A DNA stretch of 35,389 nucleotides, taken from contig JAFDEW010000004.1 in the NCBI GenBank assembly GCA_019310125.1, positions 1-35,389 on the forward strand, written 5' to 3'. This document shows positions 9,171 through 33,376 of this stretch, piece by piece. The first letter of the stretch is position 1, and every line of letters begins with the position of its first letter. Below the pieces are notes generated by a model. That model searched no databases, had not been told where the DNA came from, and saw only the letters and a list, made by a program, of their open reading frames with translations. The position numbers were made by a program, and so were the translations under genes. Source of the stretch: Deltaproteobacteria bacterium (GTDB lineage: Bacteria; Desulfobacterota; Desulfobacteria; Desulfobacterales; UBA11574).

Positions 9171-9196
9171 TTTACAACCTGTAAAAAAGACTGACA
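9171..9196 (+). promoter_or_regulatory. Enhancer-type site, copy 1
   Basis: Perfect TTTACA-N3-TGTAAA palindrome followed after 5 nt by CTGACA. It stands 98 nt upstream of the sigma-54 promoter at 9295, the usual range for binding of an NtrC-type activator. It is one of five copies in the window sharing the same layout. Confidence 0.75.
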
Positions 9197-9294
9197 CCCA
9201 TTCATTCCAAATTTTAGTAGCTATATTTTTTAAAAACAAAAAAAACCTGCATTATATCAATTGGTTCAGGATATATCTCGATGGGGCTTTATTT

Positions 9295-9310
9295 TGGTAC
9301 GGTTGTTGCT
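9295..9310 (+). promoter_or_regulatory. Sigma-54 promoter P1 for the REC-CBS unit
   Basis: TGGTACGGTTGTTGCT matches the -24/-12 pattern, with GG and GC separated by exactly 10 nt; the only notable departure is T for C after TGG. It lies 226 nt upstream of the REC-CBS start codon, so the transcript has a long leader. Confidence 0.75.
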
Positions 9311-9536: not shown

Positions 9537-10439
9537 ATGACAGAAGGAATTAAAATTCTGCTTGTGGATGACGAAAAACATTTTTTGGAATCATTGACCA
9601 AGCGTTTAAAGAGGAGAAAGCAATATGTCAAGACCGCCGAAAGCGGTTCGGAGGCTTTGGCACAGATGGAAAACGAGTCATTTGATGTGATAATACTCGA
9701 TGTCAAAATGCCGGGCATGAATGGGATTGAAGTCCTGCAGAAGATAAAACGTGGGTTTCCCGATACCGAAGTCATCATGCTTACGGGCCATGCCACAATA
9801 GAATCCGGGCTTGAGGGCGTCCGTTTCGGAGCCTTTGATTACCTGATGAAGCCCACTGATATCGAAATTCTGATGGCCAAACTGGAAGCGGCATACGAGC
9901 ATAAAACCGAAAGGGAACTTAAGATTCACGATGCTGAATTTGAACGCGATCGGGGATTAATCATCGAAGAGATAACCCTGAAAGACGTAATACAGCGCGA
10001 TATCCCAAATGTTTATGCCGATACCTCACTTGCAGATGCGGTGCGAACTTTTAAGAAAAAACCGGGCGCTCCGGTTGCGGAACAGCTCTATGTAATTAAT
10101 GATTCAGAGGAACTTGTTGGAAAAGTGAGACGCAAGCATATCCTCAGGGCGGTGATCCCCATATTTCAAAAAGAAAAAATCATTACCGGGGATGATCTTA
10201 CCTGGAATGAGTTTCTCAAAAAAGGAACAGGCCCTGTGGCCACTATGCCGGTAGGCGAAATTATGAATAAGGAAGTGAAATCTTTGGGCGCTGATGCACA
10301 GATTTTAGAGACGGTGAAGTTTATGATCGATAATAATTTGGCCGTACTTCCGGTTGTGGAAGGGAAAAAATTACTGGGAACCGTTCGGATCTATGATCTC
10401 CTGTTAGTAATCAACGACATTATGGCCGAAGCGCTATAG
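9537..10439 (+). CDS. Response regulator receiver with two CBS domains
   Basis: 300 aa. Residues 1-122 are a canonical receiver with the acidic pair in LLVDDE, phospho-acceptor Asp55 in ILDVKMPG, Thr/Ser switch in LTGHAT and conserved Lys in LMKPTD. After a charged helix come two CBS motifs at about 132-205 (DVIQRDIPNVYADTSLADAV ... ELVGKVRRKHILRAV) and 230-295 (VGEIMNKEVKSLGADAQILETVKFMIDNNLAVLPVV ... LLGTVRIYDLLL). A CBS pair usually binds adenosine nucleotides, so this protein may combine phosphorylation and energy-charge signals. It has no DNA-binding domain. A strong AAAGGAGG ribosome site fixes the ATG. It is first in a unit behind sigma-54 promoter P1 and is followed 36 nt later by a kinase-like gene. 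Confidence 0.9.
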   Translation: MTEGIKILLVDDEKHFLESLTKRLKRRKQYVKTAESGSEALAQMENESFDVIILDVKMPGMNGIEVLQKIKRGFPDTEVIMLTGHATIESGLEGVRFGAFDYLMKPTDIEILMAKLEAAYEHKTERELKIHDAEFERDRGLIIEEITLKDVIQRDIPNVYADTSLADAVRTFKKKPGAPVAEQLYVINDSEELVGKVRRKHILRAVIPIFQKEKIITGDDLTWNEFLKKGTGPVATMPVGEIMNKEVKSLGADAQILETVKFMIDNNLAVLPVVEGKKLLGTVRIYDLLLVINDIMAEAL

Positions 10440-10475: not shown

Positions 10476-11102
10476 ATGGCTGTCATAACCATTTTTGGAT
10501 TATATGCTTCAAAAAAAAGGGGGTTCGGCAAGGCCCTTGCCAAGAAGTTGAACTATGACTACGCGGACAGGGAAATAATTCGCGAGCTGTCCCGTCGCGC
10601 AAATATATCTGAAGAATATGTGGAATCTTATGAAGATGGTCGATTCACAGGACTGATGGAGATTCTTTCCAAGACCGTCAGTATGAATTTCATCAAAAGG
10701 CTTATCGGTGATAGAGCAGGGTATATAGATTCCAAGATTTACTTCAAACTGCTGGAAGAAATTGTCATTTCTCTTGCCAAAAGGGACAATATTGTTATCG
10801 TTGGACGAGGAAGCCATTGTATACTTCAGGGATATGAAAACGCATATTTTATAAAGATTAAATGTGAATGGGAAGACAGGGTCAAAACCGCCGGTAAATT
10901 ACTATCATCGCGAGTTTGCGATGTAGAAGAGTATATCCTTGAACAGGATAAAAAGGAAAAGAAATTCATGGAGTATTTTTACAACGTTGACTGGTTAGAC
11001 CCTTCACTGTTCAGCCTGGAGATAAACCTGAGCCACGTGAGTAGGGAGGAAGCCATACAACAGGTCATTGATCTGATTTCAGCCAAAAAAAATGTTGCAT
11101 AA
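10476..11102 (+). CDS. Cytidylate-kinase-like family protein
   Basis: 208 aa, related to the cytidylate kinase-like family (PF13189). Recognisable points are the N-terminal ITIFGLYASKKRGFGKALAKKL, the YADREIIRELSRRA segment typical of this family, and IVIVGRGSHCIL in the middle. The N-terminal loop is not a standard P-loop: GLYASKKRGFGK replaces a GxxGxGK[ST] pattern, so nucleotide kinase activity is doubtful and a sensing role is possible. The start is supported by AAAGGAGG, again preceded by a small hairpin (AGGC-TAC-GCCT). It is almost certainly co-transcribed with the REC-CBS gene, another nucleotide-binding candidate. Confidence 0.75.
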   Translation: MAVITIFGLYASKKRGFGKALAKKLNYDYADREIIRELSRRANISEEYVESYEDGRFTGLMEILSKTVSMNFIKRLIGDRAGYIDSKIYFKLLEEIVISLAKRDNIVIVGRGSHCILQGYENAYFIKIKCEWEDRVKTAGKLLSSRVCDVEEYILEQDKKEKKFMEYFYNVDWLDPSLFSLEINLSHVSREEAIQQVIDLISAKKNVA

Positions 11103-11140
11103 CGGCTTTGTCAAATCGCGGTGTATTGTTTATCTTTTTC

Positions 11141-11210
11141 TAACTTCTCAATAAGTTCTGGTGTGTTAAATAGTGATATTGAGCCGAATCCGTAATTTAT
11201 TGAGAAGTTA
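11141..11210. repeat. Inverted repeat, REP-like
   Basis: Perfect 14-nt arms TAACTTCTCAATAA and TTATTGAGAAGTTA flank a 42-nt centre. Part of the same unit recurs near 33260 (taacatctcaataaattacgga), so this is a dispersed repeat rather than a gene-specific site. It follows the kinase-like gene and could limit read-through, but it lacks a T-tract. Confidence 0.6.
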
Positions 11211-11332
11211 CAATGAACGATTCGATTTTTTTAATAATTGCAATAAGGGATATGCTGTTGTAACATACAGGAAAAGATTGTCGGCGGTGCATGTTTTCAT
11301 TTTATATGTTGATTCATTTTAAGGAACAAAAT

Positions 11333-11737: not shown

Positions 11738-11763
11738 TTTACATACTGTAAAAAATCCTGACA
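11738..11763 (+). promoter_or_regulatory. Enhancer-type site, copy 2
   Basis: TTTACA-TAC-TGTAAA palindrome, then 5 nt, then CTGACA. It stands 97 nt before sigma-54 promoter P2. The layout is identical to the other four copies. Confidence 0.8.
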
Positions 11764-11860
11764 TTAATCTATTTTTGCAAACAAGTTTTATAATTCCCTT
11801 CTCCAACATAGTTACCTATATTTTCAATTAGTTATAATAAATTTTTTCGGCAACCTTTAT

Positions 11861-11876
11861 TGGCATAGGTATTGCT
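11861..11876 (+). promoter_or_regulatory. Sigma-54 promoter P2 for the seven-gene unit
   Basis: TGGCATAGGTATTGCT is a near-perfect -24/-12 element. The first gene begins 221 nt downstream, after a leader holding an inverted repeat. The DNA between the enhancer-type site and the promoter is very AT-rich and could be bent. Confidence 0.85.
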
Positions 11877-12097: not shown

Positions 12098-12478
12098 GTG
12101 GAAAAGAAAATCAAAATATTAGTAGCCGACCGGAATCAGCATGTCCGAGAATTTCTAAAGCGTGAATTGATGGCAGAGGGTTACAGGGTTCGGCTGGCAA
12201 AAAACGTCCAGGAAGTTCTTAAGAAGGTATATCATACCGAAACTCTGGATCTTTTAATCCTGGACCCGGACCTGCCCGGTACCGACAAATTGGCCTTATT
12301 AAAGAAGCTGCAGAATCGGATTCCGGCCCTGCCGGTGGTCGTTCACACGTATCTTGCAGATTATAACGACTACACCAATGAATTGAGTAAACTCGCTTTT
12401 GTGGAAAAGTGCGGCAGCAGTGTTGAAAACCTTAAAAAGATGGTCCATGAAATTTTGCGAAAACACAAAACAAGTTAA
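12098..12478 (+). CDS. Divergent single-domain response regulator
   Basis: 126 aa, GTG start, with no strong ribosome site. It has a receiver fold with the phospho-acceptor Asp56 in LLILDPDLPG, a switch Thr84 and Lys104 in VEKCGS. The N-terminal acidic pair is reduced to a single Asp (ILVADRN in place of LLVDDE), and the loop after the Asp lacks the KMPGMDG signature shared by its siblings. It can probably be phosphorylated less efficiently or may bind constitutively. It is the first gene after P2 and precedes the histidine kinase by 95 nt. No output domain is present. Confidence 0.75.
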   Translation: MEKKIKILVADRNQHVREFLKRELMAEGYRVRLAKNVQEVLKKVYHTETLDLLILDPDLPGTDKLALLKKLQNRIPALPVVVHTYLADYNDYTNELSKLAFVEKCGSSVENLKKMVHEILRKHKTS

Positions 12479-12573: not shown

Positions 12574-14289
12574 ATGACGACGGGTAGCCACAAAAAGGAC
12601 CCATATTATACCTCATTGACCAGAAGAATGATTTTAACCATCATCAGTGTATCATTTGCCCCCATGATCCTGGTCAGCGGCTCAATCCTATATCGGTTCC
12701 ACGTCTCTTATCATGAAAAAGTAGCGGCCCATTTAGAAGAACTGGTGAAAAAACATAAACAGAATATTGACTCTTTTTTAAATGAGAAACTGGGCGAGAT
12801 TCGTTTTCTGGTAAAAAATTCCGAATTTGAAAATCTGTGTAAAGAATCTTACCTGGAACAACAACTGGCAACCCTGCAGCAGGAACTTGATCCTGTATTT
12901 GTAGATCTTGGGATGGTCAATTCCAAAGGGATTCAAATTGCATATGCCGGTCCCTTTAAATTGGGAAAAGCCCAGTACTCGGAATCTGAATGGTTTAAAC
13001 AGGCCATCCAAAGCCAATATTTTATCAGTGACGTTTTCCTGGGCCTGCGGGGTTTGCCTCACTTTATCGTTACGGTGAGAAAAAGCTTCCACGGAGAATA
13101 CTGGATATTTAGAGCAACCATCGACTTTATGGCCTTTAACAATCTGGTGGAAAACGTTCGTATCGGCAAGACCGGATTTGCCTTTATCGTGAATAGAGAA
13201 GGAAAATGCCAGACCAAGCCATGTCTTGACATTATACCCAGTAAAACCAACTACATGAATTTATTAAAAAACGGAAACAGGGATATCGGCAAAATTTATA
13301 TCTTTGAGGCGAAGGACGATATTGGAAAGAAAAATATCTACACGTCGGCTTTTCTCAAAAGCGGTAACTGGATGCTCATATGTCAGCAAAATAAATCAGA
13401 TACCTATTCGGATCTTTACCGCGCTAAAAAGATTGCCGCTTTAATTTTTCTTTTAGGCGGGGTGGGGATTATCACCATGGCGATTTTATTATCCCGAAGA
13501 ATGGTGATCCATATTGCACAAGCAGATCGTGAAAAGGATATGATGAACCTGCAGGTAATCGAAACCGGAAAACTGGCAACCGTAGGTGAACTGGCTGCCG
13601 GTATCGCCCACGAAATCAATAACCCGGTTGCCATTATGGTTGAAGAAGCCGGCTGGATGGAAGATTTGCTGGAAGATGTAGAGGTTACGGAAAATGAAAA
13701 TTTGGAAGAATTCCAAAGAGCGTTGAGGCAGATCAACACCCAGGGAAAACGGTGCAAGGAAATTACCCATAAGTTGCTCAGTTTTGCCAGAAAAACAGAC
13801 TCAAGGATTCAGGTTGTCCTGATGAACGATCTGATCAAAGATGCGATCGGGCTTGCTGAACAAAGTGCCAAGTATAGTAAAATTACCATCAATACAAATT
13901 TTGAAGAAAACATACCTTTCATTCAGGCCTCTCAGACGGAAATTCAGCAAGTTTTTTTAAATCTTATTAATAATGCGGTTGACGCCATGGACAAAAAAGG
14001 CGGCGGCACCATAGACATAACCAGCCGTTTGGAGGGTAACGCCATTGTGATCGATTTTGCGGATAATGGCCCGGGCATCCACCGGAATAATCTTGCCAGA
14101 ATATTCGATCCCTTTTTTACAACCAAACCCGTGGGCAAAGGGACCGGATTAGGGTTGTCTATCTGTTACGGCATTATCAAAAAAATGGATGGGGAGATCC
14201 ATGTGCAAAGTGTTGTCGACGAGGGAACCACATTCAGTATCCGCATCCCCATTCCAAAAGATTTATTAGAGGAATCGTCAATGACTTGA
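12574..14289 (+). CDS. Membrane histidine kinase with Cache-like sensor
   Basis: 571 aa. TM1 at about 18-41 and TM2 at about 286-307 enclose a roughly 245-aa periplasmic sensor region with Cache-type features (WFKQAIQSQYFISDVFLGLRGLPHFIVTV ... RIGKTGFAFIVNREG). HisKA carries the phospho-acceptor His346 in [14 protein letters not shown]. HATPase shows the N-box [17 protein letters not shown], and [10 protein letters not shown]. The layout is that of DctB-like kinases that sense small periplasmic ligands. It shares the Y-[IF]-S-D-[VI]-[FY]-[LM]-G and PHF[IV][VI] blocks with the kinases at 24783 and 29545, so the three form one paralogous sensor set. There is no DNA-binding partner beside it; two stand-alone receivers follow. 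Confidence 0.92.
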   Translation: MTTGSHKKDPYYTSLTRRMILTIISVSFAPMILVSGSILYRFHVSYHEKVAAHLEELVKKHKQNIDSFLNEKLGEIRFLVKNSEFENLCKESYLEQQLATLQQELDPVFVDLGMVNSKGIQIAYAGPFKLGKAQYSESEWFKQAIQSQYFISDVFLGLRGLPHFIVTVRKSFHGEYWIFRATIDFMAFNNLVENVRIGKTGFAFIVNREGKCQTKPCLDIIPSKTNYMNLLKNGNRDIGKIYIFEAKDDIGKKNIYTSAFLKSGNWMLICQQNKSDTYSDLYRAKKIAALIFLLGGVGIITMAILLSRRMVIHIAQADREKDMMNLQVIETGKLATVGELAAGIAHEINNPVAIMVEEAGWMEDLLEDVEVTENENLEEFQRALRQINTQGKRCKEITHKLLSFARKTDSRIQVVLMNDLIKDAIGLAEQSAKYSKITINTNFEENIPFIQASQTEIQQVFLNLINNAVDAMDKKGGGTIDITSRLEGNAIVIDFADNGPGIHRNNLARIFDPFFTTKPVGKGTGLGLSICYGIIKKMDGEIHVQSVVDEGTTFSIRIPIPKDLLEESSMT

Positions 14290-18978: not shown

Positions 18979-19004
18979 TTTACACTGTGTAAATAATTCT
19001 GACA
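18979..19004 (+). promoter_or_regulatory. Enhancer-type site, copy 3
   Basis: Perfect TTTACA-CTG-TGTAAA palindrome (TTTACAC-T-GTGTAAA), then 5 nt and CTGACA. It lies 94 nt upstream of sigma-54 promoter P3. Confidence 0.8.
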
Positions 19005-19098
19005 TATATTTTTTTCCGGCAAACTTCCCGACACACCAATTTCCAAAATAATCCTATATTTTTAAAGAGTTATCCAATATTGCTTGTTGCTTATTTTT

Positions 19099-19114
19099 TG
19101 GCACATTCATTGCT
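19099..19114 (+). promoter_or_regulatory. Sigma-54 promoter P3 for the TauE unit
   Basis: TGGCACATTCATTGCT is an essentially consensus -24/-12 element. The truncated receiver fragment starts 90 nt downstream and the intact receiver about 230 nt downstream. Confidence 0.88.
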
Positions 19115-19204: not shown

Positions 19205-19336
19205 ATGTCCAAAAAAAACATTGATGTAACCAAAGCATATAGCGGCACTGAGGCTTTGCAGATGCTGAGAAAAGCGAATTTTGATGTGGTGGTCCTGGAT
19301 TTGAAAATACAGGAAGCTGTTCAATCAGGGAGGTGA
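19205..19336 (+). pseudogene. Truncated response regulator fragment
   Basis: A 43-codon open frame whose translation (SKKNIDVTKAYSGTEALQ ... FDVVVLDLKI) closely matches residues 31-65 of the receiver at 14944. The matching frame extends two codons upstream of the ATG (KRM). The N-terminal LLVDDE part is missing and the frame runs out right after the phospho-acceptor strand, then stops 6 nt before the next receiver's start. Both ends are therefore deleted. It is a remnant of a duplicated receiver gene, and its region now serves as leader for the next gene. Confidence 0.8.
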
Positions 19337-19341
19337 TGGAG

Positions 19342-19755
19342 GTGAATAACTTCAATGTCCTGCTGGTCGATGATGAACTGGAATTTTTAGCGACTCTGGT
19401 AAAGCGGCTGACAAAAAGAGGACTCAATATTAGTACGGCAAAAAACGGTGAGGATGCGCTGAAAATAATCGGAGGAAAAGTGATTGATGTGGTGGTTCTG
19501 GATGTAAGGATGCCGGGTATTGGCGGCATACAGACACTAAGAGAAATCAAAAAGAAAGATCCTTTGATGGAAGTAATTATGCTGACCGGCCACGCCAGCG
19601 TAGAAGTGGCCATAGAAGGGATGGAGCTGGGCGCTTTTGATTATCTTATGAAGCCTGCTGATATTGATGAGCTATTTTACAAGCTCCAGGACGCGTTTAA
19701 GAAAAAAACAATTCAGCGAGAGAAAATCAAAAAGCTTGAGGAAATAATAAGATAG
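19342..19755 (+). CDS. Single-domain response regulator (REC)
   Basis: About 137 aa. A very strong ribosome site GGGAGGTGAT ends just before or within the upstream start candidates (GTG 19333, ATG 19336), so the GTG at 19342 with normal spacing is the better start. It is a receiver with VLLVDDE, Asp54 in VLDVRMPGIGG, LTGHAS and LMKPAD, and a charged tail (REKIKKLEEIIR). No output domain. It is the first intact gene of the P3 unit, 28 nt before the TauE-type permease. No kinase is in this unit, so its donor must be one of the kinases in neighbouring units. Confidence 0.9.
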   Translation: MNNFNVLLVDDELEFLATLVKRLTKRGLNISTAKNGEDALKIIGGKVIDVVVLDVRMPGIGGIQTLREIKKKDPLMEVIMLTGHASVEVAIEGMELGAFDYLMKPADIDELFYKLQDAFKKKTIQREKIKKLEEIIR

Positions 19756-19783: not shown

Positions 19784-21082
19784 GTGAATTTTTTTAGACA
19801 GTGGGGTCAATTTATGATGATGGGCGCAAAAGCCCATGCACGGTGGGAGATCGGTGTATCCAATACTATTTTTAGTGATAAAAAACGGCTTTTAATACTC
19901 GGTTTGCTGACCATTCCCATAATATTGGGAGGGATTGCGTTTGCAGATCAGATCGGTGGGGCCCTGCCGAATTTATTGGGCGGCAAGAAAGCTTACAGCC
20001 CTGCTTTTTACAGCACCGGTATATTTATCGTCTCGATCCTTATCGGCTTGGGCGCAGGACTGATTACCGGCTGCATCGGTGCAGGCGGGGGTTTCATAAT
20101 TGCGCCTGCTTTGATGAGCGCGGGTGTTAAAGGTATATTAGCCGTGGGGACAGACCTGTTTCATATTTTTGCAAAGGCCATCATGGGAAGTGTCATTCAT
20201 CGGAAGCTGGGGAATGTGTCCGTTGGCCTTGCAGCGGTCTTTCTGATCGGCGCTATTTTAGGCGCAACCCTCGGCGGTGTCATCAACCGCGTACTTTATG
20301 AGATCAATCCGGTGCTCAGCGACGCATTTATCACAACAGTCTATTCCCTTATGCTGGGTTTTCTTGGTACTTACGCCATGACCGACTTTCTCAGGGCAAA
20401 AAAGGCTGAACGCGGGGACTTTCATGGAAAGGATGCCGATGGCGGAAAAATAGAAGGGGTACAAATGGGAAATCTTCCCAAAAAGCTTCAGGCCATCAAT
20501 ATTCCTCCCAAAGTTAAATTTGATTTTGATCTCACACCAACCGGAAGGAGTATTTCATGGATCTTTCTGGTCTTAAGCGGCGTGCTGGTCGGACTTGCGG
20601 CCGGTATTATGGGCGTTGGCGGCGGCTTTTTAACCTTCCCGATATTTGTCTATATCTTGGGTGTTTCCTCCATGACCACGGTAGGAACAGACATTTTTCA
20701 GATTGTATTTACCGCCGGCTATGCCTCAATCAGCCAATACGCGATTTACGGGTTTATTTTTTATACCCTGGCCATGGGTATGCTGCTGGGATCCCTGGTG
20801 GGTATTCAGATCGGTGCAATTGTTACAAAGGTCGTTCCCGGTATCACGATCCGCGGTTTCTACGCCATGGCTGTCCTGGCCGGTTTTCTAAATCGTATCT
20901 TTGCATTGCCGGCCAAGCTGGGCGCCATGGATGTTATTACAATATCAAAAGGCACAGGCGCTTTCTTAGAGTCCATTGGTGTCTGGGCCTTTTTCATCGT
21001 AATTTCCGGATTCGCGATCTGGGTAATCGGTACGTTCCTTATTAATATCCGGGTGCTTAAAGGTGAGGGGATTAAATCATGA
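19784..21082 (+). CDS. TauE/SafE family anion permease
   Basis: A 432-aa polytopic membrane protein, GTG start with AAAGGAT upstream. It shows the duplicated glycine-rich motif of the TauE/SafE (former DUF81) family: GAGLITGCIGAGGGFIIAPALMSAG in the first half and GLAAGIMGVGGGFLTFPIFVYILG in the second. A hydrophilic cytoplasmic loop of about 60 residues lies between the halves, and an N-terminal extension of about 60 residues precedes the core. Family members export sulfite or sulfoacetate or take up sulfonates and other small anions; direction and substrate are not readable here. Its stop overlaps the start of the next gene in an ATGA, which indicates a two-protein unit. Confidence 0.88.
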   Translation: MNFFRQWGQFMMMGAKAHARWEIGVSNTIFSDKKRLLILGLLTIPIILGGIAFADQIGGALPNLLGGKKAYSPAFYSTGIFIVSILIGLGAGLITGCIGAGGGFIIAPALMSAGVKGILAVGTDLFHIFAKAIMGSVIHRKLGNVSVGLAAVFLIGAILGATLGGVINRVLYEINPVLSDAFITTVYSLMLGFLGTYAMTDFLRAKKAERGDFHGKDADGGKIEGVQMGNLPKKLQAINIPPKVKFDFDLTPTGRSISWIFLVLSGVLVGLAAGIMGVGGGFLTFPIFVYILGVSSMTTVGTDIFQIVFTAGYASISQYAIYGFIFYTLAMGMLLGSLVGIQIGAIVTKVVPGITIRGFYAMAVLAGFLNRIFALPAKLGAMDVITISKGTGAFLESIGVWAFFIVISGFAIWVIGTFLINIRVLKGEGIKS

Positions 21083-21964: not shown

Positions 21965-24559
21965 ATGGGCAAACTGATTAATGGTTTTAAAAAGCTTTTT
22001 ATAAAGAAGCCAAAACTGGATGCTGCTGATGTCGAAGAGCTTCGAATTGCATTTAAGGACAGGTATCACAGTTTCAAGCTCCTATTAAATGCCAACAACA
22101 GAACGCTTGAAATTATGGCCGATATTGAGAGAGCCCTTCAGGGCAAACAACCCTTTGGCATGTCCTTTGTCAGGTCAAGTTGTACGGCTGTATCTGTCAA
22201 TATCTTTAATATGATAAAAAATATAGAAAAGCTCGCCCCGGGCAAGTACGGAAAGCTCAATGACCGGTTCAATAATATCCAGCAATATATAGACCTTTTG
22301 CTATCACAGAAGAAATCCATGGAAGATGAAAGACTTATTTTATCCCTGGATACTGTAAATAAGGAAATGACCGATCTTGTGGGAAGTAAGATGGCTAATT
22401 TAGGAGAAATAAAAAACAGGCTTCAGATCAAAGTTCCCGGAGGATTTGTTATTACAGCGGCCGCCTATGAAAGATTTATAAGGGAAAACGATTTGCAGGC
22501 GGAAATAGACAGGCGCTTTCAGTCCGCCGATGTGGACAATATGGAAAGACTTTACACCCTGAGTTCAGAAATTCAGCAGCTTATTATAGCATCCGTTATT
22601 CCGGATGATCTGGCCGTTTCTATTATGCAGGCATGGAAACACTTTACATCAGAAACCGGAGATCGGACAACTCTGGCCCTGCGAAGCAGCGCTCTGGGGG
22701 AAGATACACAGGAGAGCTCATTTGCGGGTCAATATAGGAGCGAATTAAACGTAAGTATTGAAAGCATTTTCCAGGCGTATAAGGAAGTTATTGCGAGTAA
22801 ATACTCTCTTCAGGCCGTCACCTACCGATTGAACAGGGGATTTAAGGATGAAGATATTTCCATGTGTGTGGGATGCATGGCCATGGTGGATGCTGTTGCG
22901 GGTGGTGTCATGTATTCACGTAATCCCGTTGATGTGAGGGATGACTCGATTTTTATAAACGCTGCATGGGGATTGCCCAAGTCTGTTGTTGACGGTAGTG
23001 ATGCCTGTGACCTTGTTGTTGTTTCAAGAAAAGCCCCCATGGAAATTATTCATGAAGATATAAAAACCAAGAAAAGAAAATTTATCTGCTTTCCCGAAGA
23101 AGGGGTGTGCCGGATGGAGTTGACCGGAAAAACCGGAAATCTGGCCGCCATTGATAAAAATCAGGCATTAGATTTGGCAAAACTTGCGGTTAAGATTGAA
23201 GAATATTATGCAGGGCCCCAGGACATTGAATGGGCTATTGCCCAGGATGGCGCGGTTTATATCTTGCAATGCCGGCCATTGCAGCAAACGGAGATGGAAA
23301 AAAGAGATATCCCTGAATCGGCGATGGAAGCAGATCGTGAGGTCGTGATTACCAGAGGGGGAGTTACCGCAAGCCGCGGCGCAGCCTTCGGGGCAGTTTA
23401 TGTGGTTGAAAAAGGAATAGATATGCTGCGATTTCCCGAGGGTGATATCCTTGTTACACGGCAGGCACTCCCCAGATGGGCCTCCCTCTTAAATCGATCC
23501 GCTGCCGTGGTTACTGAGCAGGGCGGTTTTGCAGGACACCTTGCCAACGTGGCAAGGGAGTTCGGAGTCCCGGCACTCTTTGGGGTGTCCGGTGCTGTAG
23601 ATCGTTTGAGCCATGGAGAAATGGTGACCGTTGATGCCGATTCTCGTGTAATATATCAGGGGAAAATCGAGTCATTGCTGATAAAATCCGAGAAAAAGAA
23701 AAACCTTATGCACGGAAGCCCGGTTTATGAAAATCTAAAACAGGTAAGCAGCCTGATTTTACCCTTAAACTTGCTCAACCCGGATTCTCCTGATTTTAAT
23801 CCGTCCAACTGCAAAACTTTACATGATATTACCCGGTTTATCCATGAAAAATCTGTTCAGGAGATGTTCAAATTTGGCAAGGAACACAATTTTTCCGAAA
23901 AATCAAGCAAACAACTTTATTATAATGTGCCGATGCAGTGGTGGGTATTAAATCTGGATGACGGATTTAAAGAAGAAGTGGAGGGAAAGTATGTTACACT
24001 CGAAAATATTGTCTCTATTCCCATGCTGGCCTTCTGGGACGGGTTCACGGCTATTCCCTGGGACGGCCCCCCCGCAATTGACGGCAAGGGACTCATATCT
24101 GTCATGTTTCAGTCAACTGCTAACAGGGCCTTAACCCCTAGTGTTCGTTCAGCTTATTCCGACCGCAACTATTTTATGATCTCGAAAAATTATTGCAGCT
24201 TAAGTTCCAGGCTCGGGTATCACTTTTCCATTATGGAGGCTCTGGTCAGTGAGCGATCCATTGAAAATTACACAAGCTTCCAATTTAAGGGAGGTGCTGC
24301 AGACTATCATAGACGGCTTAAACGAGTACATTTTATCGGAGAGATATTGGAAAAACATGGTTTCAGAGTCGAAATCAATGAGGACAATCTGATTGCCCGC
24401 GTGGAGGGTCATAAAATGGATTTTATGAAAAATTACCTTGCAATTCTGGGTTACCTGACGCTCCATACCCGTCAACTCGATATGATCATGGCCAATACTG
24501 CCGCCCTGAACCATTATCGATCAAAAATCGATAATGACATTCAGACAATTCTCAACTAA
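21965..24559 (+). CDS. PEP-synthase-like dikinase with a novel C-terminal domain
   Basis: 864 aa. An N-terminal helical region of about 120 residues precedes a pyruvate-phosphate-dikinase ATP-grasp domain (about 130-440) with NLGEIKNRL, ALRSSALGEDTQESSFAGQY (238-257), GPQDIEWA (417-424) and LQCRPLQ (434-440). A PEP-utiliser mobile domain (about 470-570) carries the swivelling His525 in EQGGFAGHLANVAREFGVPALFG. The usual C-terminal TIM barrel that binds pyruvate/PEP is absent. Residues about 590-864 form a different domain that I do not recognise (NYTSFQFKGGAADYHRRLKRVHFIGEIL within it). Phosphohistidine chemistry is therefore possible, but the acceptor is unlikely to be pyruvate. It lies after a terminator, so it must have its own promoter, which I could not identify. 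It is followed by the P4 module. Confidence 0.8.
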   Translation: MGKLINGFKKLFIKKPKLDAADVEELRIAFKDRYHSFKLLLNANNRTLEIMADIERALQGKQPFGMSFVRSSCTAVSVNIFNMIKNIEKLAPGKYGKLNDRFNNIQQYIDLLLSQKKSMEDERLILSLDTVNKEMTDLVGSKMANLGEIKNRLQIKVPGGFVITAAAYERFIRENDLQAEIDRRFQSADVDNMERLYTLSSEIQQLIIASVIPDDLAVSIMQAWKHFTSETGDRTTLALRSSALGEDTQESSFAGQYRSELNVSIESIFQAYKEVIASKYSLQAVTYRLNRGFKDEDISMCVGCMAMVDAVAGGVMYSRNPVDVRDDSIFINAAWGLPKSVVDGSDACDLVVVSRKAPMEIIHEDIKTKKRKFICFPEEGVCRMELTGKTGNLAAIDKNQALDLAKLAVKIEEYYAGPQDIEWAIAQDGAVYILQCRPLQQTEMEKRDIPESAMEADREVVITRGGVTASRGAAFGAVYVVEKGIDMLRFPEGDILVTRQALPRWASLLNRSAAVVTEQGGFAGHLANVAREFGVPALFGVSGAVDRLSHGEMVTVDADSRVIYQGKIESLLIKSEKKKNLMHGSPVYENLKQVSSLILPLNLLNPDSPDFNPSNCKTLHDITRFIHEKSVQEMFKFGKEHNFSEKSSKQLYYNVPMQWWVLNLDDGFKEEVEGKYVTLENIVSIPMLAFWDGFTAIPWDGPPAIDGKGLISVMFQSTANRALTPSVRSAYSDRNYFMISKNYCSLSSRLGYHFSIMEALVSERSIENYTSFQFKGGAADYHRRLKRVHFIGEILEKHGFRVEINEDNLIARVEGHKMDFMKNYLAILGYLTLHTRQLDMIMANTAALNHYRSKIDNDIQTILN

Positions 24560-24606: not shown

Positions 24607-24632
24607 TTTGCAATGTGTAAATAATCCTGACA
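24607..24632 (+). promoter_or_regulatory. Enhancer-type site, copy 4
   Basis: TTTGCA-ATG-TGTAAA has one mismatch in the left arm, followed after 5 nt by CTGACA. It lies 95 nt upstream of sigma-54 promoter P4. Confidence 0.75.
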
Positions 24633-24727
24633 AACCCGCCACGCAAATCTTATCTTAAAAATTTTTCTTAATTATATAAATACCATTATATTAGCATATT
24701 AGATGTATTTTCCTTTGTTGCTATTTT

Positions 24728-24743
24728 TGGCATGCCGATTGCT
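24728..24743 (+). promoter_or_regulatory. Sigma-54 promoter P4 for the HK/REC unit
   Basis: TGGCATGCCGATTGCT is a near-consensus -24/-12 element, only 39 nt before the kinase start codon, giving the shortest leader of the five units. Confidence 0.85.
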
Positions 24744-24782: not shown

Positions 24783-26471
24783 ATGATGATGCCGGATCAT
24801 TTTTCAACACTAAGGAGAGCCATTCTTACCTGTATGGTCCTGGTTCCATTAATTCCATTCATCCTGGCTCTGGGCACCGGTTATTATTATTTCACGACGT
24901 CTCTTGAGGACAGTTCCATTGAAAGCATGAAAAGAATTGTCGAAGATCACCGGCATATGATCGAGTCTTTTCTCAAAGAGCGGAAAAATGATTTAGATTT
25001 TATTATTCATTCCTATACCTTCGAAAATCTCAGTCAATCTGAAAACCTTGAAACCGTCTTTAATAATTTACAGAAAAAATCCCCGGCGTTTTTTGATCTG
25101 GGAGTTTTCAACCCGTCCGGGGTGCATGTTGCTTATCACGGGCCTTACAGTTTAAAAGGCAAGATTTATAAAGATATGCAATGGTTCAAGGAAGTGATGA
25201 AACATGGATATTATATCAGCGATATTTTTTTAGGGTATCGGCAGATACCGCATTTTGTTATTGCGGTTACCCAGGAGGAGATGGGCAAAAAGTGGGTGCT
25301 TCGGACAACCATTGATACGGTTTCATTCAATAATATTGTAAAAAGTATCCGCATCGGTAAGACCGGAGAGGCCTACATTCTGAATGCAAACGGCTTACTT
25401 CAGACAGAACCGCGTTCCGGCGGAAAACTCATGGACAAAAATCCGCACAACATCAACTATCCGTCATCCGACACCCGCACCGAAATTTTTATAAATAACA
25501 ATGTTAAAGGTGAAAAATATCTATGCACGACCACCTGGCTGCAGAATAAAAAATGGCTGGTGGTGGTCAGACAGGAAAAAGCAGATGCATTCAAAGCACT
25601 TACTTCGGCCGCTTATTTGATTATTCTCATCATGGGGGTTGGCGGGTCGGCGATCACCGTGATTGCGTTTTACCTTACGAATCGTATTGTCGGGCGCATG
25701 GAAAAAATGGATGTTGAAAAGGACCGCTTGAACCAGCAGCTCATCGGAGCGAGTCGACTTGCAGAGCTGGGTGAAATGTCGGCGGGTTTTGCTCATGAGA
25801 TTAACAATCCCCTTCAGATCATCAAAACTGAGCAATCCCTGATCCAAATGACTTTAGAGGACATGAAGAAAGCAGGCCAGCTAAAGGAATCGGAGTCTCT
25901 GGCAGAACTTGAGGATTCCATGGATCAGATCAGACTTCAGATTTCCCGGTGTTCCGAGATTACCCGGGCAATTTTAAAATTGGGCCGGCAGGACGAGCCC
26001 AAACCTCAAGATATAACCCTTAAAGATTTCATTCCGGAAATCACCGGTATGGTGGCTCAAAAGGCCATTGTCCACGGAATTTCAATCGAGCAGGATATTG
26101 CCGAAAACACGGTTCGCATACATGGAGATCCCACCCAATTCCAGCAAGTTTTAGTGAATCTTTATAACAATGCAATAGATGCGATTCTCGAACGTCATGG
26201 AACTTCGGGCGGCAAACTGATTATCAAAGCCGGGCCAAAACAAAACAACCGGGTCGAAATTATGGTCATTGACAATGGCCAAGGAATAAGTCCCGAAAAT
26301 TTGAATAGAATTTTTTCACCGTTTTTTACAACCAAATCGGTTGGGAAAGGAACGGGCTTAGGTCTTTGGATATGTTACGGTATCATCGATAATATGCGCG
26401 GCAGTATGGAGGTCAGCAGTGACGTCGGTGTCGGAACCACCGTCACCATACTGCTACCGGCAGCAGTTTAA
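24783..26471 (+). CDS. Membrane histidine kinase with Cache-like sensor
   Basis: 562 aa from the first of three consecutive ATG codons; the third (24789) has the best spacing from the ribosome site GGGAGG. TM1 (about 13-35) and TM2 (about 278-299) bracket a periplasmic sensor with WFKEVMKHGYYISDIFLGYRQIPHFVIAV and RIGKTGEAYILNANG. HisKA has His338 in GEMSAGFAHEINNP. HATPase shows LVNLYNNAIDA, DNGQGI and [10 protein letters not shown]. It is a paralogue of the kinases at 12574 and 29545. It is the first gene behind P4 and is paired with the receiver at 26785, from which it is separated by a repeat element. Confidence 0.92.
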   Translation: MMMPDHFSTLRRAILTCMVLVPLIPFILALGTGYYYFTTSLEDSSIESMKRIVEDHRHMIESFLKERKNDLDFIIHSYTFENLSQSENLETVFNNLQKKSPAFFDLGVFNPSGVHVAYHGPYSLKGKIYKDMQWFKEVMKHGYYISDIFLGYRQIPHFVIAVTQEEMGKKWVLRTTIDTVSFNNIVKSIRIGKTGEAYILNANGLLQTEPRSGGKLMDKNPHNINYPSSDTRTEIFINNNVKGEKYLCTTTWLQNKKWLVVVRQEKADAFKALTSAAYLIILIMGVGGSAITVIAFYLTNRIVGRMEKMDVEKDRLNQQLIGASRLAELGEMSAGFAHEINNPLQIIKTEQSLIQMTLEDMKKAGQLKESESLAELEDSMDQIRLQISRCSEITRAILKLGRQDEPKPQDITLKDFIPEITGMVAQKAIVHGISIEQDIAENTVRIHGDPTQFQQVLVNLYNNAIDAILERHGTSGGKLIIKAGPKQNNRVEIMVIDNGQGISPENLNRIFSPFFTTKSVGKGTGLGLWICYGIIDNMRGSMEVSSDVGVGTTVTILLPAAV

Positions 26472-26555
26472 ACTAAATGCAGGACTACTGACCTATTGTA
26501 GATTCAGATTCAACATATTTTAATGAAGAATTCACACCTTGAAGGCATATAAAAG

Positions 26556-26680
26556 ATGAACGTCGAACATCGAACATCGAACGTTGAACATCCAATAATG
26601 TATTCTACCATTTATAATAAAGACAAAGCGAAGCGCCTTCCACATTCGACGTTCGACGTTGAACGTTCGATGTTCAAATT
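26556..26680. repeat. NVEHRTSN-type inverted repeat
   Basis: Left arm GAACGTCGAACATCGAACA and right arm TTCGACGTTCGACGTTGAACGTTCGA are built of GAACRTCGAACNTC-like units in opposite directions. The left arm translates as NVEHRTSNVEH, a phrase often mis-annotated as a protein in many bacterial genomes. The 65-aa ORF here is therefore not a gene. The element sits between kinase and receiver and may fold into a large mRNA hairpin. Related arms lie at 29158 and 29463. Confidence 0.8.
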
Positions 26681-27279: not shown

Positions 27280-27305
27280 TTTACACTGTGTAAATAATCC
27301 TGACA
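27280..27305 (+). promoter_or_regulatory. Enhancer-type site, copy 5
   Basis: Perfect TTTACA-CTG-TGTAAA palindrome, 5 nt, then CTGACA. Apart from one base of the 5-nt spacer it is identical to copy 3. It lies 93 nt upstream of sigma-54 promoter P5. Confidence 0.82.
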
Positions 27306-27398
27306 TATACATCCGCACATTCCACCGTTAAAATTTCTCTCAGTCAATTAATTATCAGTTATTTTAAATGGTTATCCAAGTTTGTTTATTGCTTTATC

Positions 27399-27414
27399 TG
27401 GCATAAAGATTGCT
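27399..27414 (+). promoter_or_regulatory. Sigma-54 promoter P5 for the second DASS unit
   Basis: TGGCATAAAGATTGCT is a near-consensus -24/-12 element, 97 nt upstream of the transporter's GTG. Confidence 0.87.
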
Positions 27415-27511: not shown

Positions 27512-29146
27512 GTGAAAATTCAGACAACAAGTGCCGATGGCCGGTCCGCATTCTGGAAGAATAAGCCGGGTTATAAGCCGATTTTGTTTATTGCCGCAGC
27601 CGTGGTTTTTATTGTTATGGTTGTTATGCCGTCACCCCAAAGTATGATTGACATGGTGACAAAAGTCAGCCCTCCCGGGTATAAGCTGTCAAAGGGGTGT
27701 TCAACTATTGTTGAAACGGTTAACCAAAAGTTACGGCCCAAGGCCTTTAAAGCATCCCGTCAGGACAAGACAATAAAAGGGGAAAAACCACTGATGGATG
27801 AGAAAGGGGTGGCCCGGAATGCTAAAATTATGATTGCCATATTATTTTTAGCCGCTTTTTTATGGGGCACTGAAGCCCTGCCTCTGGGCGCCACGGACAT
27901 TATGGTGGGGGTCTTGATTTATCTTTTTGCTATCCTGCCGATTAACGAAATTTCCAGGGCGTATATGAAAGATGCCGTGTTTTTTATTTTCGGCATCCTG
28001 GCGGTAGCGGTTGGCGTTTCCAAAACCGGTCTTGACAAACGGATCGGCCTGATTCTTCTGAGCCGGATTAAGAGCGCTAAATCTTTTGCCTTTATCTTTT
28101 TTCCTCTACTGGCTATGTGTGCCGGATTTTTATCCGAACATGCCCTGGTGGCCCTCCTGATTCCCGCACTTATGGGGGTATATAAGGTTACCTGCAAAAT
28201 GCACGGCGTTAAAAAAGACCGGGCTCTGGCCATTTTTCTTTTTCTTGGGGTCTGTTTTGCGGCCAATCAAGGAGGCCCGGGGTCTCCGGCAGCGGGGGGA
28301 CGCAACGCCATTATGGTCGGCTATTTCATGGAATATGGGATGCCGATTTCTTTTTTGCAGTGGATGAAATATGGCCTGCCGTTTGTTCCGTTCATGGCGG
28401 TGGTCATCGGAGCTTACATGTATATTCTCTTTAAGCCCAAATTCAAGGTGCCGGATGTAAATCCCAGCGAAGTCGTAAAGGCTGAAGTGGCGAATATGCC
28501 TAAATTCGGAGGTCAAGAAGCCATAATGGCTATCATCTTGATCCTTTTAATCACTGGATGGATTACGCTGAGTAAAATTGCCGGTCTTGGCGGCCCCACT
28601 CTTTACGCGGTAATGGCAATGTTTGTATTCCGTATTGTCTCCTGGGATGACATCCAGGCGGGCGTGGCCTTTGATGTGGTCGGGTTGTATGCCGCCGCCT
28701 GTGCCATGGGAGTGGGTCTGAAATTTACCGGAGGCGCCCTCTGGCTGGCATCTACCTTTGTCAATTTCCTTCCGGATTTTATGACCAAAGGTGACGGCCT
28801 GATTATAGGGGTCAGTCTGCTGACCGGAACCATGACCAATTTTATGAGTGACGGTGCTACGGTTGCCGCTTTGGGACCAATCGTTCTCCCCATGGCCACA
28901 CTTGCCAATGTTAATGTTTGGAAAGTGGGGCTGGCCACCGCTTTTTCTTCCTCATTTGCGAATTTTCTGGTGGTCGGCACGCCCAACAATGCAATTGCCT
29001 TCGGCATGAGCCGGGATTTTGAAACCGGTGAAAGGTTGCTGGATGTAATGGATTTTGTTAAATACGGACTTCCGGTAACTATTCTGGCCTGGCTCGTCCT
29101 CTGGGGTTGGGCAGTCTTCGGATACTGGAAATTTTTATCCTGGTAG
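27512..29146 (+). CDS. DASS/SLC13-type anion transporter (second copy)
   Basis: A 544-aa inner-membrane permease, GTG start with AAGGAG 5 nt upstream. As in the first copy, TM1 is followed by a long hydrophilic loop (about 70 residues) before the transporter core (AKIMIAILFLAAFLWGTEALPLGATDIMVGV). The SNT substrate motifs are replaced by GFLSEHALVALL in the first repeat and TNFMSDGATVAALGPI in the second, while GTPNNAIAFGMSRDF keeps the end signature. The two DASS proteins are clearly divergent from each other, so they may carry different anions or work under different conditions. It is the first gene of the P5 unit, ahead of the frameshifted kinase and a receiver. Confidence 0.85.
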   Translation: MKIQTTSADGRSAFWKNKPGYKPILFIAAAVVFIVMVVMPSPQSMIDMVTKVSPPGYKLSKGCSTIVETVNQKLRPKAFKASRQDKTIKGEKPLMDEKGVARNAKIMIAILFLAAFLWGTEALPLGATDIMVGVLIYLFAILPINEISRAYMKDAVFFIFGILAVAVGVSKTGLDKRIGLILLSRIKSAKSFAFIFFPLLAMCAGFLSEHALVALLIPALMGVYKVTCKMHGVKKDRALAIFLFLGVCFAANQGGPGSPAAGGRNAIMVGYFMEYGMPISFLQWMKYGLPFVPFMAVVIGAYMYILFKPKFKVPDVNPSEVVKAEVANMPKFGGQEAIMAIILILLITGWITLSKIAGLGGPTLYAVMAMFVFRIVSWDDIQAGVAFDVVGLYAAACAMGVGLKFTGGALWLASTFVNFLPDFMTKGDGLIIGVSLLTGTMTNFMSDGATVAALGPIVLPMATLANVNVWKVGLATAFSSSFANFLVVGTPNNAIAFGMSRDFETGERLLDVMDFVKYGLPVTILAWLVLWGWAVFGYWKFLSW

Positions 29147-29157
29147 ACTGAAAAAAA

Positions 29158-29528
29158 ATGAACGCCCAACATCGAACGTCCAACATCGAATGATGAATGG
29201 AAAAAGATGAAGAAACAGAAATGATGCATTCGTAAAAAGTCGTCACTCCGGTGAAAACCGGAGTCCAGATGGTCTGTAACTGCTTGAAAAGACTGGATTG
29301 CGGCTTGGCCGTCATCCCGGACCCCGATCCGGGACGGAATGACGGAAAACGGTATTTTGGGACTTTTTACGAGGCCATCAGAAATAGCTGTTGAATGTTT
29401 GGTATTGGATATTTATTTTTTATTCGATTTTAAAATAATTTGAGGAGCGGAGCGACATCATTATTCGACGTTCGACGTTCAATGTTCGATGTTGGACGTT
29501 CATCTTTTAATATGTTGGACGTTCATCC
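29158..29528. repeat. NVEHRTSN-type arms flanking another repeat
   Basis: The left arm (29158-29195, AACGCCCAACATCGAACGTC) and the right arm (29463-29528, TTCGACGTTCGACGTTCAATG and a further GTTGGACGTTCATC copy) are inverted relative to each other. They are the same family as 26556-26680. The TCGTAAAAAGT element at 29230-29372 sits between the arms, which suggests insertion of one repeat into another. It separates the DASS gene from the kinase. Confidence 0.7.
29230..29372. repeat. MITE-like element with TCGTAAAAAGTC ends
   Basis: The 12-nt terminal inverted repeats TCGTAAAAAGTC and GACTTTTTACGA are perfect. The interior holds two GC-rich hairpins (ACTCCGG ... CCGGAGT and CCCGGA ... TCCGGGA). 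It has no coding capacity. A related element with the same end core lies at 31204-31328. Confidence 0.7.
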
Positions 29529-29544
29529 TTTAAACGGAATTTTA

Positions 29545-32863: not shown

Positions 32864-33376
32864 ACATAAAAACCCCGAATAATTTAACGCCTCAAAAATT
32901 TTATAACTTCTTGAAAATACCAGTTTATCAACGGCAACCTATTTGTGCCATCAAGTTTATAGTATCGTATCCCTATCAAACTTACTTAATATATGTAACC
33001 CTTTGAATCAAATAAATTGTTCTTTATCTTTTGATTGCTCTCAAATGAAGTGCTTAATTAGTATCCATCCATAAATCTGTATTGAGCACAAATTATGTTT
33101 CCAATGCAGAAATTAGCAATTTTTCGCAAGGTCAAGGAAATCAAGGAATTGCGCGGAGGCGTACAAGTGGTACGCCGCACAAGTAATTCCGCAGATTGAC
33201 GCAGAGATTGCGGAAAAGGGCAATTTCTGGATGGAAACTAATTAAACTTCTCGGAATTTGTAACATCTCAATAAATTACGGAATAGTGGCCGAAGTTATG
33301 AAAAATTGGTTGCATATAAGTTTCGAGTTAGGGTAAGACTTTTAAAACGTTAAATTGCGGTTTGGGAGAATCAATA
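32864..33376. other. Gap between antiporter and radical SAM gene, mostly repeat DNA
   Basis: The central part is an inverted-repeat element (listed separately). A partial copy of the TAACTTCTCAATAA repeat of 11141-11210 lies near 33260-33285. The promoters of the two divergent genes must lie here, but I could not identify them. Confidence 0.5.
33054..33245. repeat. Inverted-repeat element, MITE/REP-like
   Basis: The ends TTAATTAGTATCCATCCATAAAT and ATTTCTGGATGGAAACTAATTAA are inverted repeats of 23 nt with two mismatches. A second, inner start (GTTTCCAATGCAGAAATTAGC at about 33098) also pairs with the right end, as if one copy had landed in another. The centre has CGCAAGGTC and the palindrome GCGTACAAGTGGTACGC. 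No ORF. Confidence 0.65.

Follow-up and report, generated by a model that had tools for sequence, protein, structure and literature searches.

A probable three-half-site operator repeated upstream of sigma-54 promoters in Desulfobacterales and its likely NtrC-type activator

The window considered here, the whole stretch of 35,389 nucleotides analysed from contig JAFDEW010000004.1, carries five copies of a composite sequence in which a palindrome is followed by a further hexamer, raising the question whether such a site is read by one protein or by two, and how its half-sites would be shared out. The layout consists of TTTACA (half-site a), three nucleotides, TGTAAA (half-site b), five nucleotides and a third half-site (c), which reads CTGACA in all five copies:

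Composite operator 1, 9171-9196, plus strand: a, TTTACA, 9171-9176; b, TGTAAA, 9180-9185; c, CTGACA, 9191-9196
Composite operator 2, 11738-11763, plus strand: TTTACATACTGTAAAAAATCCTGACA
Composite operator 3, 18979-19004, plus strand: TTTACACTGTGTAAATAATTCTGACA
Composite operator 4, 24607-24632, plus strand: TTTGCAATGTGTAAATAATCCTGACA, one mismatch in half-site a (TTTGCA)
Composite operator 5, 27280-27305, plus strand: TTTACACTGTGTAAATAATCCTGACA

All five positions had been located correctly in the initial annotation. Its statement that a palindrome is followed by CTGACA at exactly 5 nt is borne out for the spacing in every copy, but the palindrome is imperfect in copy 4 (24607), where the left arm reads TTTGCA.

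Downstream of each operator, at a distance of 94-99 bp, lies a canonical sigma-54 element of the form GG(C/T)(A/G)-N6-TTGC, with an IHF-like sequence in between:

IHF-like site 1, 9255-9267, plus strand: TATCAATTGGTTC, 8/9
Sigma-54 -24/-12 element 1, 9296-9309, plus strand: GGTACGGTTGTTGC, 99 bp after operator 1
IHF-like site 2, 11822-11834, plus strand: TTTCAATTAGTTA, 8/9
Sigma-54 element 2, 11862-11875, plus strand: GGCATAGGTATTGC, 98 bp after operator 2
IHF-like site 3, 19060-19072, plus strand: TTTTAAAGAGTTA, 7/9
Sigma-54 element 3, 19100-19113, plus strand: GGCACATTCATTGC, 95 bp after operator 3
IHF-like site 4, 24689-24701, plus strand: TATTAGCATATTA, 8/9
Sigma-54 element 4, 24729-24742, plus strand: GGCATGCCGATTGC, 96 bp after operator 4
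IHF-like sequence 5, 27353-27374, plus strand: 27353-27365 (8/9) or 27362-27374 (7/9 by eye), the latter nearer the usual offset
Sigma-54 element 5, 27400-27413, plus strand: GGCATAAAGATTGC, 94 bp after operator 5

The IHF consensus WATCARNNNNTTR was used as quoted in PMC7962754, with a threshold of at least 7 of 9 positions and with the promoters aligned on the -24 GG. A match at -40/-41 from this GG is present in 59 of 105 non-redundant promoters, where other offsets average 2.8 and shuffled sequences 3.1, and the distance from operator to promoter is 93-100 bp in 98 of 105 non-redundant sites. The position of an IHF consensus between enhancer and promoter is that of an IHF-dependent sigma-54 promoter, and the source genome encodes one RpoN as well as IHF/HU-family genes. 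A good sigma-54 -24/-12 element also occurs near position 2903 on the minus strand, upstream of a glycosyltransferase-like gene; no composite operator accompanies it, so this promoter is probably served by another activator.

The following genes are assigned to the five promoters:

Promoter 1: RR-CBS protein, 9537-10439; cytidylate-kinase-like protein, 10476-11102
Promoter 2 (first genes): RR, 12098-12478; dCache histidine kinase, 12574-14289
Promoter 3: RR, 19333-19755; TauE/SafE transporter, 19784-21082; PPDK-like protein, 21965-24559
Promoter 4: dCache histidine kinase, 24783-26471
Promoter 5: DASS transporter, 27512-29146

Two DASS-type transporters are found among the products of the window operons. 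The PPDK-like protein (21965-24559) shows N-terminal ATP-grasp and mobile domains; no PEP/pyruvate-binding C-terminal domain was matched in it, and at the Pfam cut-off applied its C-terminal third gave no hit. The window also holds other repeats. Short tandem and inverted repeats with a GAACATCGAAC-type unit occupy two intergenic regions (26551-26675 and 29153-29533), which lie 2.6-2.9 kb apart and are 90% complementary over 51 nt, while the 25-nt sequence TCCGTAATTTATTGAGAAGTTACAA, possibly a small repeat element, is present at 11189-11213 and 33258-33282 (also at 11138-11157), in inverted orientation and 22 kb apart.

The composite site extends beyond the window. In pattern searches of the source genome, a 3.79 Mb MAG of 535 contigs, 13 exact palindromes TTTACANNNTGTAAA were counted, 10 of which carry NNGACA at the fixed offset; no sigma-54 element was found near the other three. 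Additional operators are located on contigs C50 (two), C91 (two, divergent), C305, C396 and C463. Each of the 12 strongest operators (at most 2 mismatches), which sit on contigs C13, C50, C91, C396, C305 and C463, is followed at 94-99 bp by a sigma-54 element, and a weaker operator on C455 is followed by one at 74 bp. Chance or paralogy as the origin of the sites was rejected in view of their recurrence on unrelated contigs and in unrelated genera.

Conservation of the single half-sites was assessed in 24 genomes from the family of the source organism by leave-one-out searches, in which two half-sites and the sigma-54 element were fixed and the third half-site was left free. With a and b fixed, 114 sites were obtained, 106 of which show GACA at the exact offset (no matches with the reversed control pattern); b and c fixed gave 118 sites, 106 with exact TTTACA and others with near-matches such as TTTGCA, TTTTCA or CTTACA; a and c fixed gave 113 sites, 106 with TGTAAA and the others with TGTTAA, TGCAAA or TGGAAA. 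Reversed-pattern controls gave zero in nearly every family genome. Half-sites a, b and c are absent from 12/118 (10%), 7/113 (6%) and 8/114 (7%) of the sites, respectively, and being about equally conserved they are parts of one signal, a three-half-site operator upstream of a sigma-54 promoter. The description of CTGACA as invariant holds for the window and fails across the family, where it accounts for only 66 of the 114 sites, next to CCGACA (21), TCGACA (10) and rarer variants; the core of half-site c is GACA, with the first two letters varying. The spacing is rigid and GACA is retained in 106 of 114 sites, rather than the palindrome being kept without CTGACA or the spacing varying freely, which the initial annotation had named as counter-evidence. 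Since a-b is symmetric, the search left the side of c free, and c was found on the promoter side in 106 of 114 sites; in one exception (G006:C409:10812) the palindrome is common to a divergent site.

As judged from a collection scan with the exact composite, the matches listed belong almost all to sulfate reducers and their relatives, mostly Desulfobacterales; the few others listed, in Mucilaginibacter, Flavobacterium, Pseudomonadales, Bacteroidetes and Clostridiales, all lack the promoter. Among the matches listed, a strict sigma-54 element is present in 52 of the 83 sites read, nearly always at 94-100 bp, and the domains seen most often in the 81 first downstream proteins are universal stress protein (18), receiver (12), dCache (10), kinase ATPase (10), TauE (8), CBS (8), cytidylate kinase-like (7) and cNMP-binding (6). 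The regulon is clustered in a genome of the same genus, where about 100 kb (G014:C1:222460-324997) hold roughly twelve composite sites together with the regulator gene discussed below (287345-288778).

Which protein would bind these sites? The sigma-54 activator domain is matched 28 times in the source genome. One of these proteins, an NtrC-type response regulator encoded on the minus strand of contig C396 (L011:2479-3915) and adjoining a histidine kinase, has a composite site starting 8 bp past its stop codon. It combines the Pfam domains Response_reg, Sigma54_activat and HTH_8, that is, an AAA+ domain with GAFTGA and a Fis-type HTH. Its orthologues share 58-99% identity, with the next paralogues at about 45% or below, and in most loci holding both, including that of Desulfovibrio sp. 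DV (L155), a site lies 5-263 bp past the regulator stop, down to orthologues of about 58% identity. At the family level 13 of the 16 genomes with sites have an orthologue and none of the 8 lacking sites has one (p=0.0002). Three family genomes and G077 have sites and no detected orthologue, which speaks against the link, though they are MAGs of 68-88% completeness (68-87% for the three). At the order level (76 genomes) an orthologue is found in 27 of 28 genomes with sites versus 19 of the 48 that have no exact site (Fisher p=4e-7); these 19 genomes, which have the regulator and no exact site with promoter, also count against it, some diverged sites being seen beside the orthologues and in some cases none being recognisable. 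With its AAA+ sigma-54 domain, its HTH and its linkage to and co-occurrence with the sites, this regulator, encoded outside the window, is the likely activator.

For the division of the half-sites, the geometry of the pair b-c is informative. It forms TGT-N11-ACA, a 6-5-6 inverted repeat in the arrangement of NtrC operators, and reads TGTAAA-N5-NNGACA in the 106 sites with all three half-sites. NtrC-type operators follow TGCACY-N5-RGTGCA; the 6-5-6 geometry and the REC-AAA-Fis HTH architecture of the regulator are shared, whereas the half-site letters differ, TGCACY being unmatched by TGTAAA and TGTCRG, and the divergent half-site a is extra. The TGT-N11-ACA pair had been recognized in the initial annotation, but its assignment to the same helix side is imprecise, since the half-site centres are separated by 14 bp, as is usual for NtrC dyads, and this is not a whole number of turns. 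No average signal for a conserved partner half-site upstream of a was found in the aligned sites, and a hidden fourth half-site c', which would have completed a symmetric dimer pair, was discarded on the same grounds. Perfect symmetric four-half-site forms (TGTC...TTTACA...TGTAAA...GACA) do exist at L157:1422-1458, L158:4553-4589 and L208:6490-6526; none of them is followed at the normal spacing by a convincing sigma-54 element, so they are not used as evidence for a fourth half-site.

The palindrome a-b may alternatively be the dimer site of the activator, with c as a separate contact of a third subunit of the same protein, as the initial annotation implied. This division agrees with a and b both reading TGTAAA outward while c reads TGTCRG on the opposite strand, and with a being nearly as conserved as c, but it is unlikely, given that the spacer between a and b is neither conserved nor AT-rich whereas the centre of b-c is A-rich (positions 16-18), that the 6-5-6 NtrC geometry belongs to b-c, and that the eroded sites L281 and L283, beside diverged regulator orthologues, retain an exact b-c and a promoter at 92-95 bp and have lost a. 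Together with the missing upstream partner of a, these features indicate that b-c is probably the main (canonical) dimer site and a an extra half-site, so that of the earlier scheme of a palindrome plus a separate CTGACA the conserved third element persists as GACA and the partition changes.

It had also been left open whether an activator alone or a second protein is involved. A further regulator, or a nucleoid protein, bound to the half-site not covered by the activator could account for the sequence of c, which is unlike a and b, and for the few promoter-less palindromes without c in the source genome; we regard it as quite improbable, because the elements almost never separate, their spacing is rigid to the base, they keep one orientation relative to the promoter and their presence tracks one regulator, and the regulon cNMP-binding proteins tested showed no DNA-binding domain. 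We favour a single protein that makes several contacts and may bind cooperatively, as the initial annotation had suggested for an activator, since a, b and c nearly always occur together, c almost always lies on the promoter side and presence follows a single enhancer-binding protein. That this protein is another of the 28 enhancer-binding proteins, the linked regulator being merely a neighbour, has similarly little probability: such proteins are numerous in the source genome and motif similarity does not always parallel HTH similarity (PMC4641369), yet site and regulator stay linked in orthologues with as little as about 58% identity, and both co-occur at family and order level.

Very probably, then, each site is the enhancer of one sigma-54 activator of the NtrC type, with three half-sites, an IHF bend and a sigma-54 promoter. 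The motif, its rigid spacing, the promoter, the IHF-like site and the regulator linkage are all visible in the sequence, and from them we infer the identity of the binder and a division into two dimers. Most likely, one dimer would occupy b-c and half-site a would anchor a second; as a has no conserved upstream partner, this second dimer would be half-specific, which counts against the scheme. The two dimers would nucleate the active AAA+ ring, IHF bound at about -40 from the -24 GG would bend the DNA, and the ring could meet the sigma-54 RNA polymerase about 95-99 bp downstream. The regulator would presumably be phosphorylated by the adjacent histidine kinase.

Three-half-site operators of enhancer-binding proteins are already known in Desulfovibrio. 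The operator of DVU2956 from Desulfovibrio vulgaris Hildenborough, a sigma-54 enhancer, contains three conserved half-sites, as shown by EMSA with a mutated control (PMC4641369). The likeness to the sites described here follows from that description; unlike DVU2956, which has no N-terminal sensory domain and one target operon (PMC4641369), the present regulator carries a receiver domain and would serve roughly a dozen targets. The D. vulgaris motifs of this protein class have TGT and ACA 9, 11 or 12 bp apart (Kazakov 2015; PMC4641369), so that TGT-N11-ACA is common to both, the third half-site being the difference here. IHF-assisted sigma-54 promoters (PMC7962754) likewise have an IHF-like site between promoter and an enhancer about 100 bp upstream, although the present sites show a highly uniform spacing across a large number of genes and genera.

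A description of this regulator, operator or regulon was not found in the literature searched. Judged by titles and abstracts, no relevant paper combines the half-site strings TTTACA and TGTAAA with sigma54, and a search on three half-sites of enhancer-binding proteins likewise gave none. We see an even balance for and against the sites representing an undescribed regulon of Desulfobacterales and some relatives, in which one NtrC-type activator would use an odd, three-half-site enhancer to seed its ring at a nearly fixed distance from IHF site and promoter; the gene classes concerned are universal stress proteins, sulfate/sulfite-type transporters, sensor kinases and a formate channel. A response to stress or energy limitation with altered anion transport is a guess at its role. 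Five repeats that lacked an explanation could then be tested as a regulon whose regulator, operator, IHF site and promoter are all named. This regulon may help to annotate genomes of Desulfobacterales and some of their relatives, and the near-constant distance between enhancer and promoter, together with the odd number of half-sites, would offer a natural test of how AAA+ rings are seeded on DNA.
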